Source: Lentibacillus sp. CBA3610 (GTDB lineage Bacteria; Bacillota; Bacilli; Bacillales; Amphibacillaceae). From it: DNA of 64,000 bases. Positions 12,757 to 43,009 of this stretch are shown one piece after another. The notes below the pieces were generated by a model. That model saw only the letters and a program-made list of their open reading frames with translations. It did not search any database and was not told where the DNA came from. Position numbers and translations under genes: made by a program. The stretch covers positions 1,488,001 to 1,552,000 of the forward strand of contig NZ_CP035925.1 of assembly GCF_013373365.1 (NCBI RefSeq), written 5' to 3'. Within the stretch, counting starts at the first letter, position 1; each line of letters begins with the position of its first letter.

Positions 12757-12972
12757 CCCCCGTCCCTATGTCATTGACTGACATAGGGACGGGGATTAAT
12801 CCGCGGTTCCACCCTACTTGCCCTTTTCATAAGGGCCACTTTATCACGATTGCTCCGGAGCGCCGTTCCTCATGTTTTGTTATCCGGCTTCCACCATTCC
12901 GGACTCGCTCACAACAAGAATCCATAAGTACTCTTCTCCATCAGCACAATATCAGAATCTGTTAAAATGACG
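12757..12972 (-). promoter_or_regulatory. Glycine T-box riboswitch (leader of glyQS)
   Basis: The minus strand carries the T-box sequence AGGGTGGAACCGCG at 12802-12815. Just downstream a 16 bp perfect stem (12758-12773 with 12779-12794) followed by six U residues is the intrinsic terminator. Upstream, the Stem I base GGAG pairs with CTCC, and on the 3' side of the specifier loop lies GGC (12862-12864), a glycine codon followed by a purine. The conserved AAGAGTA of the loop is also present. Charged tRNA-Gly would favour termination; uncharged tRNA-Gly would pair with the UGGA bulge and permit transcription of glyQS. Confidence 0.92.
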
Positions 12973-24089: not shown

Positions 24090-24536
24090 TTAGCTTAAAT
24101 GTTTTTGAACAAGTTTATTAATTCGGGCACCATCAGCCTTCCCTTTCACTTTAGGCATAATCGAATTCATTACCTTGCCCATGTCCTGCCTGGAAAATGC
24201 GTCTACTTCTCTAATGGTGGCCTTTACTATCTGCTCCAGCTCTTCATCTGTCAGCTGCTGGGGCATATATGTCTGAATAAGATCGATTTCAGTTTCAAGC
24301 TTATCAACAAGGTCATGACGATCAGCTGATTTAAACTCTTGGAGGGATTCCTTTCTTTGCTTCAACTCTCTTGAAAGTACTGTTAATTCCTCGTCTTCCG
24401 AAAGATTTTTATTACCAAGTTTAATTGACTCATTTTGCAATGAAGCTTTTACCATACGTATGACAGCGAGTCTATCTTTTTCTTTATTTTTCATAGCCTG
24501 CTTCATATCCTGGTTCAGCCGTTCAACTAATGCCAT
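24090..24536 (-). CDS. yqeY: YqeY (GatB/YqeY domain protein)
   Basis: Soluble helical protein of 148 residues related to the tRNA-binding tail domain of GatB; exact function unknown, possibly tRNA-linked. The family segments [35 protein letters not shown] and [20 protein letters not shown] are clear. It lies 18 bp downstream of rpsU, the conserved rpsU-yqeY pair, and is followed by a terminator. Confidence 0.93.
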
Positions 24537-24554
24537 GGGAATGCACCTTCTTTA

Positions 24555-24728
24555 TTATCTGCGTTTTCTGGCAGCTTCAGATTTCTTCTTGCGTCGTACG
24601 CTTGGTTTTTCATAATGTTCACGCTTACGATATTCCTGCAATGTTCCGCTTTTGGATACGTTGCGTTTAAAGCGACGAAGAGCATCTTCAAGAGACTCGT
24701 TTTTACGAACGCGAGTTGTATTTGACAT
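24555..24728 (-). CDS. rpsU: 30S ribosomal protein bS21
   Basis: Small-subunit protein S21, 57 residues, located near the anti-Shine-Dalgarno region of 16S rRNA. The sequence [20 protein letters not shown] and the very basic C terminus are typical. The start is the ATG at 24726-24728, preceded by CGGAGGGAGGG. An upstream extension of the frame is not coding. First gene of the rpsU-yqeY unit. Confidence 0.97.
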
Positions 24729-30411: not shown

Positions 30412-30431
30412 GGGCCTATAGGATGTAGGTC

Positions 30432-30472
30432 AGTTCGACGTTGCCACATGATGTGGCGCTCTTAATCGAACT
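30432..30472. repeat. REP-like nested hairpin between dnaK and its terminator
   Basis: Outer arms AGTTCGA (30432-30438) and TCGAACT (30466-30472) enclose a compact hairpin GCCACA-TGA-TGTGGC (30443-30457). It begins 20 bp after the dnaK stop. Such stable nested stems often protect mRNA 3' ends; function here is inferred. Confidence 0.55.
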
Positions 30473-30491
30473 TCCTTTTCTTATATGATGC

Positions 30492-35458: not shown

Positions 35459-37264
35459 TTAATCATCATTCATTTCCAGTACTGCCATGAATGCCTCTTG
35501 AGGAACTTCAACAGAACCGACCATTTTCATTCGTTTTTTTCCTTCTTTTTGTTTCTCCAACAGTTTCCGTTTCCGTGTAACATCGCCGCCATACAATTTG
35601 GACAGCACATTCTTTTTCAAGGCTTTAATCGTCGATCGTGCAATGATTTTGTTCCCGATGGCTGCCTGTACCGGCACTTCAAATTGCTGCCTCGGGATTA
35701 GATCTTTCAATTTATCCACGATATTTTTTCCTCGTGCAAAAGCAAAATCCCGGTGTACAATAAATGATAGCGCATCGATGGTATCACCGTTTAATAAGAT
35801 ATCCATTTTAACCAAATTTGATGGGTGGTAACCAATTACTTCATAATCAAATGATGCATATCCTTTCGTTTGCGATTTTAATTGATCAAAAAAGTCATAT
35901 ACAATTTCAGACAACGGGATATGATAGATCACATTGACACGAATTTCGTCAAGGTACTCCATATTAACAAACTGACCGCGTTTTCTCTGGGATATTTCCA
36001 TAACCGGTCCGACATAATCATTCGGTACCATAATTGTCGCTTCAACATATGGTTCGCGTACTTCCTGAACGAGCTGATTATCCGGCATCGTGGAAGGATT
36101 GTCGACTTCAACCGTTTCACCATCTGTTTTCTCGACTTCATAAATGACAGAAGGAGCTGTTGTAATCAAATTAATATTAAATTCCCGTTCAATTCGCTCC
36201 TGGATTATTTCCATATGTAATAGTCCAAGAAAACCGCAACGGAAACCAAAGCCCAGTGCCTGTGAACTTTCGGCTTCATACTGCAGTGAGGAGTCATTAA
36301 GTTCCAGTCGTTCCAATGCCTCACGCAAATCGTTATATTGATTCGGATTGACCGGGAATAACCCGCAAAACACCATCGGATTCAATCGTTTATACCCGGG
36401 TAATTGTGTCTCCGCCGGGTTTTTGGCAAGTGTAACCGTGTCGCCTACCCTCGTATCGCCAATATTTTTAATTGATGCGGTCAGAAAACCAACATCACCG
36501 ACAGTCAATTCATCTTTTGCAACGGGATTGGGCCTGAAAACACCAATCTCATTAACTTCAAATTCTTTTCCGTTTGCCATTAATCTGATTTTATCCCCGA
36601 CTTTGACAGAACCCTCTTTAATACAAACATAAGTAATCACCCCACGGTAAGGGTCATACAATGAATCAAATATAAGTGCTTTCAGAGGGTTTTCAGATTC
36701 ACCGGATGGCGCCGGAATATCCGATACAACCCGTTCCATAATCTCGTCAACACCAATATCATCTTTTGCCGAAGCTAAAATAATCTCATCTTTATCAATT
36801 CCGATGACATCTTCCAGTTCCTGGGCCACACGATCAGGATCAGCATTCGGCAAATCGATTTTGTTGATGACCGGAATGAGTTCAAGGTCATTATCCAAAG
36901 CTAAATAGACATTGGCAAGCGTCTGTGCTTCAATTCCCTGAGCAGCATCCACAACTAAAACGGCACCTTCACATGCCGCAAGACTTCTGGATACCTCATA
37001 TGTAAAATCGACATGCCCGGGTGTATCAATTAAATGAAATAAATAATCTTCTTCGTTTTCACTTTTATAATTCAGTTGTACAGCATTCAATTTAATCGTG
37101 ATTCCCCGTTCGCGCTCCAAATCCATCGCATCAAGAAATTGATCCTTCATCTCGCGCTGTGTCAATGCTTTTGTCTTTTCAAGAATACGGTCTGCAAGCG
37201 TTGATTTCCCATGGTCGATATGAGCAATGATGGAAAAATTACGTACATTCTCTTGTTTGATCAT
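35459..37264 (-). CDS. lepA: Elongation factor 4 (LepA), back-translocating GTPase
   Basis: Translational GTPase of 601 residues. G1 [16 protein letters not shown] (about 14-29), G3 DTPGHVDF and G4 NKIDLPNAD are intact, as are the [19 protein letters not shown] segment and the LepA-specific C terminus ([35 protein letters not shown]). The reading frame is complete and undisturbed, in contrast to the three genes directly upstream. It probably shares a promoter region with yqxA-spoIIP-gpr or has its own in the 140 bp gap. Confidence 0.97.
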
Positions 37265-37404: not shown

Positions 37405-37708
37405 TCAGAAAAACACTTGAACAAGCTGATACGTAATCCCAACAATTAGTTCATAAAATCCTTTTACACCTGATTCCAAAAATGATGCCGCTTTCTGTGT
37501 GAAATGCTCAGGTGTATCGAGCTCCCTTGTAACATCGCTTGATTCGGCTGTCAATTACACCTGGTTTCATCTCCTACATCAGTTTGCTCCAACGACTCCA
37601 TCTGCACTTGCATAGTCTCCGTTTTCCTGATTTACTGCGATCCCACGCCTAATGATAAACTGTTAAAAAGAACAGCACTAGTGATAAAAGTATAACAAGG
37701 GTGCGCAT
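37405..37708 (-). pseudogene. yqxA: yqxA-like gene broken by frameshifts
   Basis: Between lepA and spoIIP, where B. subtilis has yqxA, the minus strand shows an ATG (37706-37708) behind TAGGAGGGAAAT and a hydrophobic N terminus (MRTLVILLSLVLFFLTV) that runs into a stop after 19 codons. In other frames the coding text continues: a middle part (MQVQMESLEQTDVGDET) and a C-terminal part ending AASFLESGVKGFYELIVGI and the stop at 37405-37407. The span is not a multiple of three. At least two or three single-base indels would restore one frame of about 100 residues. Assignment to yqxA rests on position, length and membrane-anchored character. Confidence 0.6.
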
Positions 37709-37730
37709 ATTTCCCTCCTATTGATTGACA

Positions 37731-38877
37731 TCACTTGCTCGCATCATTCCAGTAATAATCACTGAACCACTTCTGCCATTGCCATCTGCCGTACGGTATA
37801 GTTCATCCAAATGATACCAACCCCTCCGAATTCGATCAGCATGGCATTCGGTGATAAATCCTGATTATATACACCATTGCTTCCTGATCCGTTTTTGGTA
37901 TGACGCCCCTGCTCAACAGGGTATTTCTCACCATCTCGTGCAGCTGATTGGCAATTTCCAGATCTTTCATACTCGGCATATTTTGCCCCGAACGACAAAC
38001 ATGAACTCTGGCATTTTCCCTTCAATTTCTTTGGTTCTCCCTTCGAATCAGCAGGTGTAAATCAAACGAAAAAACTGAAATCATCACTGCCAGCAATGCC
38101 TCTTGAAACAACCTCTCTGGAAGCTCATAGGACTCATGGTATTCCAGATCCTGATCATTAAAAATATCATAATGTCAGTTTGATCAACTCTCCCATAGCC
38201 AAGTGAATCGGCAAATCGTTCACTGACCTTTCCAATATTCACCTCTCCATGCTGCGCCTTATCAGGATCATCAACTTCAGGGAGATGAGGTAGAAAGGAT
38301 TCCCGGTTATGGGTGTTGTAAATAAAGACAACATCGCGTTCTCCCGTACTTGGCGTTTCCTCTTCCTGGTCTTCATCCTCCGATTCTTCCGTTTCTTCCT
38401 GTTTTTCCTCTTCCTCGACAACGGCTTCTCTTTCCTCTAAAACATCTTCAAGCGGTGGTGCTGACTCAACTGGTAAATTGGTATAATCCGTCCCTTCACC
38501 AGCTATAATGATTTCGTTCTGAAAGGTTAAGAAACCCGGGAGTTCCTGTCCCAATAAACTTCTGGTGTCGCTCGGCCGGATATTTGTTGCCATCTCAAAC
38601 AGCATATTCGATATTTCGGGCAACTCCTGATCATCGGGATAAGCTTCCTGGAAAGCTCTGTTTTCCATTCCCATTAAATATAAAAAAGTTGTGGAATCCA
38701 AATCGCTTGTCCAGTTTGTAATGGTATTGGACGAAATCCGGTAGGCCGGCGAGACCGTGGTTAAAAGGCCGACTACAATGAATAAAGCAGCCACACAGAT
38801 TATATAAATACTGCTCTTTTTATAAAAATGCCGTAATATCTTTTTATTTTTCGGACTGTTATCCTTTCAAGATACAT
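37731..38877 (-). pseudogene. spoIIP: spoIIP broken by multiple frameshifts
   Basis: SpoIIP is the amidase/endopeptidase that, with SpoIID and SpoIIM, degrades peptidoglycan during engulfment. The ATG at 38875-38877 has AGAGGGGTGGACC upstream, but the frame shifts within a few codons. The longest intact part (38190-38800) encodes the membrane anchor, SLLGQELPGFLTFQNEIIIA, GEGTDYTNLPVESAPP and VVFIYNTHNRESFLPHL. The rest is scattered over frames: NDQDLEYHESYEL and SRGIAGSDDFSFF near 38075-38150, NAMLIEFGGVG near 37830, and the true C terminus FSDYYWNDASK with a stop at 37731-37733. Amino-acid identity to the family is well kept between breaks, so the damage is recent or an artefact. Confidence 0.85.
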
Positions 38878-38987
38878 GGTCCACCCCTCTGAAGAATTTC
38901 CTGCTATAAATCTATGAAATAACTTCAGAAGCTAGAACCAAATTCTTTATATAAAAAATTATCGTAATAGAATAATAAACGTAGACA

Positions 38988-40074
38988 TCAGCGCGTGTAT
39001 GACGCAAAATTCTCGACGGTCACCTGATCATGCAAAGCAGCATTTAATCCTGTTGCAATCACTGTCGCCATATCTTTCATGAAACCATCCACTCTTTCGG
39101 GGTACCATAAATTATGGCCTATTGGGGTTAAACTCCTGAATCAACGACTCTTTCTTCTTCTGACAATTTGCCTACAATTCCGAGAAATGTTTCGCGCTCT
39201 TCTTCATCCGGCAAGTCGTCTTCCGTGAATTCCTTATGTCCAAAAGATAATCCTGCAGGTGCCAATGACTTTGATGGTTTATCCTTATCCCGCAACTCTC
39301 TGCCAAAATGCTTCAGCATAAAATCGATTGTATCACTTGTGATTGTCACAGCATCCACAACTGTCGGAACACCACAAGCGAAGACGGGAACGCCGATTGT
39401 GTCTTCACTAATTCTTCCGTTTTATGCCGACCCTGAGCCCGGGTGTATGCCTGTATCTTGAAATCTGGATGTTTCATTAACGCGTTCAATTGACCGGACG
39501 CAAGCGCATCAACAGCAATAACAAAATCCGGTTTGAACTTCTCGACAATCCCAAAAATGATGTTGCTTGTTTCGATACCCGTTACACCCATTACCCCTGG
39601 CGTAACAGCTGCCAGCGGGCGATAGCCTTCTGATACCGATTCATGCTCCATCTGAAATAAATGACTGGTCACGAGCACTTTTTCAACTGACATAGGTCCC
39701 AATGCATCAGGGGTGACATTCCAGTTGCCAAGTCCGACAATCAAGCCGGTCCCATCTGCAGGTACCTTGCTTTTTGCCATTAATTCTTCCAACTCTTTAC
39801 TAAAAATTTTTGCAGCTTTTTCCTGTTTTTTTGTATCCTGTTTTTTAACCCCGTCGGCATAGATTGTTATATATGATCCCTGTTTTTTTCCAAGACGCTG
39901 TTCTCCCTCAGCATCTATATCGACGTAAGTTATGGCAATATCATCTTCTTTTTTTTCTTTAATGGTCACGCCTTTTACATCTTGTTTTTGCTCTCCTTCA
40001 TTTTCCACGTACATATCTCTGGACTCGACTGCCAGGTCTGTTCGGACGTTAAATTGTTGATCATTATCTGCCAT
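38988..40074 (-). pseudogene. gpr: gpr (germination protease) broken by multiple frameshifts
   Basis: GPR degrades small acid-soluble spore proteins at germination. Codons 1-195 or so are in one frame (40074 to about 39490): pro-region MADNDQQFNVRTDLAVESRD, then IVGLGNWNVTPDALGPMSVE and PGVMGVTGIETSNIIFG, up to AVDALASGQLN. After this, conserved words jump frames: DTGIHPGSG near 39440, [20 protein letters not shown] near 39355-39415, [31 protein letters not shown], and finally ATVIATGLNAALHDQ ending in a stop at 38988-38990. About eight or more small indels are needed to rejoin them. Substitutions and nonsense codons are not evident. Confidence 0.88.
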
Positions 40075-40262: not shown

Positions 40263-40532
40263 GTGGCAAATATCAAATCAGCAATTAAACGTGTCGATAT
40301 TAATCGAAAAAAACGTGCTCAAAATACCGACTTTAAAACAAGTATGCGTACAGAGATCAAGCGTTTGGAAAAACTGATTGATGAGAAAGATGCAGAAGGA
40401 GCAAAAGCTGCTCTCTCAACTACCTTTAAAAAGATTGATAAAGCTGTCCAGCATGGCGGCATCCATCAAAATAACGGAAACCGTCAGAAATCACGTTTAA
40501 CGAAAAAGGTAAACGAATTACAGAGTGCATAA
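40263..40532 (+). CDS. rpsT: 30S ribosomal protein bS20
   Basis: Small-subunit protein S20, 89 residues, binds the 5' and 3' minor domains of 16S rRNA. The sequence MANIKSAIKRVDINRKKRAQN and KGIIHKN-like HGGIHQNNGNRQKSRLTKKV are typical. The start is a GTG (40263-40265) with GGGAGGTGAGTTTAA upstream; rpsT commonly uses weak starts for autoregulation. It is divergent from gpr and convergent with holA, as in B. subtilis. Confidence 0.97.
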   Translation: MANIKSAIKRVDINRKKRAQNTDFKTSMRTEIKRLEKLIDEKDAEGAKAALSTTFKKIDKAVQHGGIHQNNGNRQKSRLTKKVNELQSA

Positions 40533-40630: not shown

Positions 40631-41650
40631 TCAGTTATAGGTCAATTCATGCAGCAATAGTTCGAATGCAAGTCCTTTTTCCATTTTGCCCTGCTTAATG
40701 GCTGCATCGGTTTGGGTTAACTTATCCATGATGGTTTGCAGACGGTCAACCGTGAACTTCCTTTCGCGCTGACCAGCCATTTTGATCACATATGGATGCG
40801 CTCCGATTTGTTTTTGCATCTGAAATTGGCTATACCCTTTTTGGCTCATCAGCTTCACTCGTAAAATTGTCCGGAACTGAAACGCAAGCAATGCTATCAG
40901 ACCAATTGGTTCCTCATTCATTTTTTCCAGATCTTTATAAATCGAAACAGCTTTATCCAGTTTGCGCTCAATGACAGCATCAACAAGCCTTAGTGATGAA
41001 TTCGTTTCCGTATGGGAAATCAGATTTTCTGCAATTTCCTTCGTGACAACACCATTTTCACCAACATATGCGGACAGCTTTTCCAATTCATTTCGCACTT
41101 GATGCAGATTGGTCGATAATTCCGACTCAAGCATTTCATAGGCATCTTCCTCAATTATCATTTTCATACTGCCGGCCAGATTTTTAATCCAGTTCTTCAA
41201 GTCGTAATCCTTAATTGGATTACATTCTGCGGTAACACTATGCTGTTTCAGCACTTTACTGATTTTTTTACGTTCGTCAATTTTCTCATAAGATGCCGTA
41301 AATACAATAACAGCATAATCTGTTGGCTGTTCCAGATAATGAATCAGAACATTCAAATCATGTTCGAACGGTAATTTATCCGGTTTTGCTTTTAAAAACG
41401 AAGGATTATGGGCCATGATCAATTTCGTTCCGCCAAAAAAAGGGTATGTCTCTGCATCGGTAATGACTTCCTGAACAGGCGTTTCCTCTAAATCATAAAC
41501 AGACAAATTTTCATCGGCCGCTTCTGGCAATACTGCCTCTGTTATATGTTTTGTTATATTTTGTATAAAATAAGATTCTGTTCCATATAATAAATATACA
41601 GGTGCAATCTGCTTTTGCTTGACTTGCTGTAATACGTTCATATATGACAT
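40631..41650 (-). CDS. holA: DNA polymerase III delta subunit
   Basis: Clamp-loader wrench subunit that opens the beta clamp. The N-terminal AAA+-like domain includes YLLYGTESYFIQNITKHI and the ETYPFFGGTKLIMAHN segment; the helical collar domain (about 210-335) holds EEPIGLIALLAFQFRTIL. I start at the ATG at 41648-41650 (MSYMNVLQQ), with TTGGAG eight bases upstream, giving 339 residues; the GTG three codons earlier overlaps that site. It is convergent with rpsT. Confidence 0.93.
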   Translation of the reverse strand: MSYMNVLQQVKQKQIAPVYLLYGTESYFIQNITKHITEAVLPEAADENLSVYDLEETPVQEVITDAETYPFFGGTKLIMAHNPSFLKAKPDKLPFEHDLNVLIHYLEQPTDYAVIVFTASYEKIDERKKISKVLKQHSVTAECNPIKDYDLKNWIKNLAGSMKMIIEEDAYEMLESELSTNLHQVRNELEKLSAYVGENGVVTKEIAENLISHTETNSSLRLVDAVIERKLDKAVSIYKDLEKMNEEPIGLIALLAFQFRTILRVKLMSQKGYSQFQMQKQIGAHPYVIKMAGQRERKFTVDRLQTIMDKLTQTDAAIKQGKMEKGLAFELLLHELTYN

Positions 41651-41735
41651 GCGGTTCACTCCAATTATACGATATCATTAATCGTAAATCGTAACCACTG
41701 AAATGACAAGTCATACTGCTGAAATAAATTGGCTC

Positions 41736-42274
41736 TTTTCGTAAACGTTGTTGCTTAGTCGATGTAAACTGCGATACTCTGAAAAATTTGAGTGCAATGA
41801 TACCGCTACGGAAATACGCTTCGCTTTCCGCGGGCGGCTGGTGAGCCTCCTCGTGCTCGTCGTGTTGCAAGATTTTTCGGTGAAGCAGCACTCCTCGCAG
41901 AAAAAGATTGCTGGCGCACTGCGGGTCTCACCTATGCCTATCCTCCCGCTGGTGACTTTCTGTACATTAAAAGTTTTTCACTAGGACAGAACATGACACG
42001 GAGCTGCGAAAAATACGACACTCCTGCTGGAAAGGAACAGTCTGAAGACCCCGCAGCGAGCGTTCAAGGAACAAAGGCTAAATTCGCCACGTCATAGCCA
42101 ACGCCTCCGCGAACCAACATCGTGTTGGCCCGCGAGCGAAGGAGGCCTGAGGCGTTCCCCGCGGAAAGGGAGTATCCGCAGCGACGGACGAGCACTCAGG
42201 TCCCGATAGAATGGAGAAACACATTCCAAAGTTGTTTCGCAGTATGATTTTGCGGCAAAAAAAACAACTTTGAA
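41736..42274 (-). repeat. Composite GC-rich intergenic repeat, copy 2 (inverted relative to copy 1)
   Basis: Read on the minus strand this has the same lobe A then lobe B order as 7601-8090. Lobe A (about 41975-42274) includes CAAAGTTGTTTTTTTTGCCG, CCTGAGTGCTCGTCCGTCGC and GGAACGCCTCAGGCC; lobe B (41736-41970) includes GTGAGACCCGCAG, GAGGAGGCTCACCAGCCGCC, GCGTATTTCCGTAGCGG and, at its outer end, CGTTTACGAAAA. It lies upstream of holA, about 85 bp from its start. Short open frames across it are not shared with copy 1 and are unlikely to be genes. Confidence 0.8.
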
Positions 42275-42867: not shown

Positions 42868-43009
42868 GACTGTTATCTCAAAGCTCACGGGTCACCCTAA
42901 GGTGGCCGAGTGTATTTCCGAAGCGGTGTTATTGCACTCAAATTTTTCTATGCCGCAGTTTATATCGACTACAAGGTTAGAAAGCAACAAAGTTTACGAA
43001 AAGTGCCTT
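42868..43009 (+). repeat. Dispersed GC-rich repeat, partial copy 4 (lobe B end)
   Basis: Contains CACCCTAAGGTGG, GAGTGTATTTCCGAAGCGG, TGTTATTGCACTCAAATTTT and the outer end CGCAGTTTATATCGACTAC to CAACAAAGTTTACGAAAAG. It matches the right part of copy 1 (about 7995-8070) and the outer end shared by copies 2 and 3. It ends a few bases before the comEC terminator. Confidence 0.75.

Follow-up and report, generated by a model that had tools for sequence, protein, structure and literature searches.

Short indels that break yqxA, spoIIP and gpr in Lentibacillus sp. CBA3610 most probably reflect an assembly artefact

Three adjacent minus-strand genes of Lentibacillus sp. CBA3610, yqxA, spoIIP and gpr, are broken in the deposited genome by short insertions and deletions (indels). 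We examined them in a window of 64,000 nucleotides (contig NZ_CP035925.1, positions 1,488,001 to 1,552,000), whose numbering is used below unless stated otherwise. Judged from the sequence, the broken stretch is very probably an assembly artefact and not a gene loss (probability about 0.95). Two neighbouring pieces would represent error-rich long-read consensus that was left uncorrected by short reads, and the living strain most likely has whole yqxA, spoIIP and gpr genes. This interpretation is based on indels private to this genome, damage edges that lie within reading frames, the clean island that separates the damaged pieces, similar patches elsewhere, one of them in the essential gene obg, and the hybrid nature of the assembly.

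The locus has intact neighbours on both sides, as the earlier note on this DNA had described. Downstream, lepA (35459..37264, minus strand) is an open frame of 601 aa with no private indels. On the other side, rpsT (40263..40532, plus strand) is an open frame of 89 aa, and holA (40631..41659, minus strand), named from the earlier finding and its position, is an open frame of 342 aa, also free of private indels. The broken genes, all on the minus strand, are a yqxA-like gene (37408..37708), spoIIP (37734..38877) and gpr (38991..40074). The last two were identified through their orthologues in a same-genus relative, G011, which score above the NCBIfam cut-offs for TIGR02867 (stage II sporulation protein P) and TIGR01441 (GPR endopeptidase), respectively. 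The yqxA-like gene was delimited by alignment to a 101-aa G011 protein that has no NCBIfam match; its name comes from the earlier finding and its position, and yqxA is poorly conserved even between relatives.

A Pfam search of the CBA3610 genome revealed no second copy of spoIIP or gpr; the two spoIIP fragments and three gpr fragments that it detected are all at the lepA-rpsT locus. Among 11 same-genus genomes, gpr is open in every one; more widely, 38 of 39 relatives have it. All 11 likewise carry a SpoIIP-family gene that is free of inner stops, ten of them at the lepA-rpsT locus. The exception is G005, where yqxA and gpr adjoin with no spoIIP between them (C1 384414-385999, contig coordinates) and the sole SpoIIP-family match is at C1:60050-60721. 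In addition to the SpoIIP match at this locus, three other genomes (G006, G007 and G008) contain another one.

To describe the damage, DNA from lepA to holA was aligned between the window and six of the eleven same-genus relatives (G004, G011, G007, G008, G002 and G006; G004 and G008 end before the far end of holA). G010 (69% identity) and four other same-genus relatives were left out. The window has 35 private indels in this alignment, 30 with a length not divisible by three; a few of the 35 may be misplaced, given that the relatives are 73-82% identical at the locus. Frame-breaking events number 16 in spoIIP, 7 in gpr, 3 in the gap between these two genes (at 38881-38983) and 2 in yqxA and its gap. 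Thus, all three genes are indeed broken by small indels, and these indels are private to CBA3610 relative to the six relatives. The comparison with lepA and holA that had been proposed as a check gives 16 events in spoIIP and 7 in gpr versus none in either neighbour. Single frame-breaking events at the first base of rpsT (one base) and in the rpsT-holA gap were taken for alignment effects. For spoIIP and gpr together, the window has 23 frame-breaking private indels, compared with none in five relatives and one in G002.

A frame-aware alignment of the G011 proteins (94-99% of protein length, frame-shift penalty 18) leads to the same picture: they cover 37408-37708 (YqxA-like), 37734-38851 (SpoIIP) and 38991-40074 (GPR) only with frame changes or stops. 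Over three penalties, 4-11 frame changes were obtained for spoIIP and 3-5 for gpr; yqxA required one frame change and four stops, or three and one, depending on the penalty. In gpr, the N-terminal half is in minus frame 1, DTGIHPGSG and another 15-letter word are in minus frame 0, and the word ATVIATGLNAALHDQ is in minus frame 2, so the hopping of recognisable protein words between minus frames is as had been reported. The earlier estimate that gpr needs about eight or more single-base indels has to be revised to seven private frame-breaking events, three of one base and four of two bases, all of them deletions in this small sample.

The damage is sharply confined. It had been presented as one broken region; damage is present there, but it is divided between two indel-dense stretches, at about 37.6-38.2 and 38.9-39.5 kb. 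The first (37633..38199, minus strand, delimited by private indels in the seven-row alignment) comprises the 3' part of spoIIP and the 5' part of yqxA. The second (38881..39496, minus strand) comprises the spoIIP-gpr gap and the 3' part of gpr and has 10 private indels, none of them a multiple of three. Between them, 713 bp of 5' spoIIP (38168..38880, minus strand) contain no frame-breaking private indel, only in-frame ones (12 and 9 bases), and have substitutions at the ordinary level. All 16 frame-breaking events of spoIIP are within 37737-38167 and all 7 of gpr within 39103-39496; the 5' half of gpr is clean, with no such event in its first 578 bp. Uniform placement of the events, repeated 200000 times, never produced an empty part as large for spoIIP; for gpr it did so 7647 times, a result that is weak by itself. 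The gene parts used in these tests were picked after the data had been inspected.

Similar damage occurs outside the window. Two further patches, within 110 kb of the spoIIP/gpr patch, break genes whose G011 proteins are named GTPase ObgE (obg) and trigger factor (tig) by NCBIfam. In obg, 18 private frame-breaking indels are in 1597010-1597684 (contig coordinates, as for tig) and none in the last 537 bp (eight same-genus relatives aligned); in tig, 19 are in 1631512-1632240 and none in the last 521 bp (seven relatives aligned). None of the eight and none of the seven relatives has a frame-breaking private indel in the same gene parts. Of 200000 uniform placements each, 188 for obg and 154 for tig left an empty part as large. 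Upstream of tig the patch continues, with 17 private frame-breaking indels versus at most 4 in any relative; upstream of obg, CBA3610 has 5, fewer than one relative (7 in G010), so that damage there is not evident. Frame-breaking deletions of four bases occur four times in spoIIP and once in obg. Pooled over spoIIP, gpr, obg and tig, the spectrum consists of 26 one-base, 11 two-base and 5 four-base deletions and 18 one-base insertions; the patches are similar but not identical in indel make-up. In all four genes, patch edges fall within reading frames and not at gene borders. A switch from polished to unpolished sequence would give such edges, whereas gene decay would not.

The obg patch is informative in another respect. 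Whole obg was found open in all 11 same-genus genomes by protein search, as was tig. In CBA3610, the Obg domain was detected in a single place, as two weak, stop-containing matches (38 and 28 bits), whereas the G011 match scores 214 bits and has no stop; other matches to the obg query in CBA3610 cover it partially, at 28-40% identity. The literature describes Obg proteins as essential for bacterial growth (PMC3056739; also PMC10123104 and PMC4743925), and titles cited in this literature, including the reference list of PMC3056739, call Obg essential in Bacillus subtilis. With obg essential and no other recognisable copy, an isolate that was grown should not have lost this gene. The obg and tig damage is no strict proof of the cause at spoIIP and gpr.

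These patches stand out in a broader comparison. G011 proteins were compared by frame-aware alignment with 0.58 Mb of contiguous CBA3610 DNA, which includes the window, and with scattered stretches totalling 0.38 Mb, the latter with few homologues; the resulting counts hold for the stretches compared and are not a genome-wide figure. We aligned 321 of 647 G011 ORFs (at most 750 aa, with a tblastn match at E <=1e-8, 50% identity and half of the ORF covered) and kept 316 (coverage >80%, identity >50%). Of these, 35 had a frame change and 7 had at least three, with 84 changes in all and a maximum of 13. The reverse control started from 845 ORFs, of which 325 were aligned and 319 kept; here, 40 genes had a frame change and 2 had at least three, with 49 changes and a maximum of 4. 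The seven CBA3610 genes were obg and tig (13 each), spoIIP (7), an ORF upstream of tig (6), gpr (3) and two others (4 and 3). Single frame changes were not counted as errors, because the control has as many such genes and most of the changes (17 of 21 in CBA3610) are within 125 bases of a match end.

Other gauges were less useful. Genes split in tblastn alone were rejected as a separator of the two genomes, as 11 of 212 were split in CBA3610 and 10 of 216 in the reverse direction; frame changes per gene do separate them. A codon-usage scan for frame hops missed the known spoIIP/gpr patch and was too insensitive for any count to be drawn from it; it revealed two clusters of at least four segments in CBA3610, near 2,206.6 and 3,354.5 kb, and none in the G011 control. 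The ABC transporter family was also discarded as a genome-wide gauge: it yielded at least 91 matches in CBA3610 and at least 97 in G011, with no inner stop among the matches listed. In four ORF matches with in-frame stops, three in the window and one just outside, the stops are near ORF ends. The orthologues of glutamate racemase and sdhB at 1637252-1640341 of the CBA3610 contig, outside the window, have two frame changes each and may be smaller patches of this type. At 24148-24667, a match to a 173-aa G011 ORF has one frame change and two stops; this ORF may be an antisense non-gene.

Substitutions were counted at columns invariant in the relatives, excluding columns within 5 of a gap. In the broken parts, the window differs at 15 of 268 such columns in gpr and 11 of 185 in spoIIP, so the earlier statement that almost no substitutions are needed was too strong. 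The corresponding values for the clean parts are 10 of 352 and 9 of 306. Substitutions in the broken spoIIP and gpr parts are thus modestly raised as well. For obg, changes were found at 30 of 312 columns in the broken part and at 4 of 232 in the clean part; for tig, the values are 43 of 346 and 5 of 318. Divergence of the broken gpr part from G004 is 0.10, 0.06 and 0.39 at codon positions one, two and three. Overall, the broken parts show some excess of first- and second-position changes, to which misalignment near indels can contribute, and they keep the third-position bias.

The alternative that survives best, improbable as it is, is that these are real pseudogenes, i.e., that the engulfment protein SpoIIP and the germination protease GPR were lost and their genes are decaying together. 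Such a loss would be consistent with the damage to three adjacent genes, two of them spore genes, with the lack of another spoIIP or gpr copy, with the rough doubling of changes at conserved columns in the broken parts, and with the absence of spoIIP between yqxA and gpr in G005, which makes real loss possible within the genus. The G005 loss, however, is a clean deletion in a genome that has another SpoIIP-family gene. Decay over the full length of the genes is also not what was found, as spoIIP and gpr are each dense with indels in one part and free of frame-breaking ones in the other (713 and 578 bp, respectively), and the third-position bias persists in the broken parts. In spontaneous mutation, indels are far fewer than substitutions, whereas here we estimate them to be about as numerous as the excess substitutions. 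Moreover, obg and tig carry similar damage, and spoIVA and spoIID, the only two other spore genes tested genome-wide, are open. Decay of spore genes would account for neither the edges within genes nor the damage to obg. The earlier note had left the choice between a low-quality patch and the recent loss of both proteins, and had expected an asporogenous strain if the loss was real. The patch is supported; the loss is disfavoured by the obg and tig patches, the edges within reading frames and the open spoIVA and spoIID. Without SpoIIP engulfment is blocked, but the loss of only GPR is not known to render a strain asporogenous.

It is less probable still that the sequence is correct and a local burst of indels removed spoIIP, gpr, obg and tig in a strain that lives without ordinary Obg or engulfment; a Lentibacillus without SpoIIP, GPR and normal Obg, which a true loss would imply, is very unlikely. 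A mixed culture, in which most cells lack the stretch and a poor consensus was built on few reads from cells that keep it, would account for one poor-consensus spot in a deeply sequenced genome, but obg would have to fit too and cells cannot lack it, and single-colony transfers preceded DNA extraction (PMC8220782), so that we give this scenario hardly any weight.

An assembly artefact agrees with the way in which the genome was produced. CBA3610 (taxid 2518176) is a human faecal isolate with a genome of 4,035,571 bp (accession CP035925). Its reads came from PacBio RS II and Illumina HiSeq X Ten instruments; Unicycler 0.4.6 was used for assembly, and Pilon 1.21 for correction (PMC8220782). The main text of that paper contains no word starting with "spor". 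In Unicycler, dead ends of the short-read graph are filled with long-read consensus, and such bridges are described as "more likely to contain errors" (PMC5481147). Most likely, Illumina reads were absent or unmappable in the broken stretch, so that the sequence there would rest on PacBio consensus. Whether a Unicycler bridge in particular was the route is close to an even bet; the errors may alternatively have come from a long-read assembly that Pilon failed to polish. The assembly is described as PacBio first with HiSeq correction after (PMC8220782), and on this wording a bridge step may have played no part. For 4.04 Mb, the reported read totals (about 1.19 Gb from PacBio and 0.80 Gb from Illumina; PMC8220782) correspond to roughly 290-fold and 200-fold depth. 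At such depth in both read types, the short reads would not be expected to leave a gap, which counts against a simple lack of coverage, and we found no extreme of G+C in the patches that would account for one. Completeness of the CBA3610 genome is 94.94, compared with 98-99 in the 11 same-genus genomes; the lower value would fit further patches and may stem from the same fault.

The window has several other elements. The segment 41708-43047 is part of a dispersed repeat family, with about 41.73-42.28 kb matching at least 20 places in the CBA3610 genome. It carries 26-nt inverted arms (92%) at 41731-41756 and 42982-43007 and an Rfam Bacillaceae-1 RNA match at 42062-42128, and resembles a non-coding mobile element. 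Another Bacillaceae-1 RNA match, stronger at 65.2 bits, is at 30415-30481 on the minus strand, and a T-box leader is at 12782-12953, also on the minus strand.

These data serve as a warning: although published as complete, the genome has patches where conserved genes, one of them essential, look broken. Anyone inferring gene loss, asporogeny or a pseudogene count from the CBA3610 genome would be misled.

With an asporogenous pseudogene cluster, CBA3610 shares deposited spoIIP and gpr genes that have neither an open frame nor a second copy; it differs in the mosaic of clean and broken parts within genes, in the damage to obg and tig, and in the open spoIVA and spoIID. With the clean loss of spoIIP in G005, it shares the site between yqxA and gpr. 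There, however, spoIIP is cleanly absent with no remnant match, and another SpoIIP-family gene is elsewhere, whereas in CBA3610 the whole of spoIIP is present but scrambled. Clusters of short indels that break conserved frames are shared with the indel errors of long-read assemblies, e.g., Unicycler bridges, and gene-fragmenting errors in such assemblies are the topic of PMC12007338. CBA3610 differs from these in that its final assembly was polished with short reads and its errors are concentrated in sharp-edged patches instead of being spread genome-wide.
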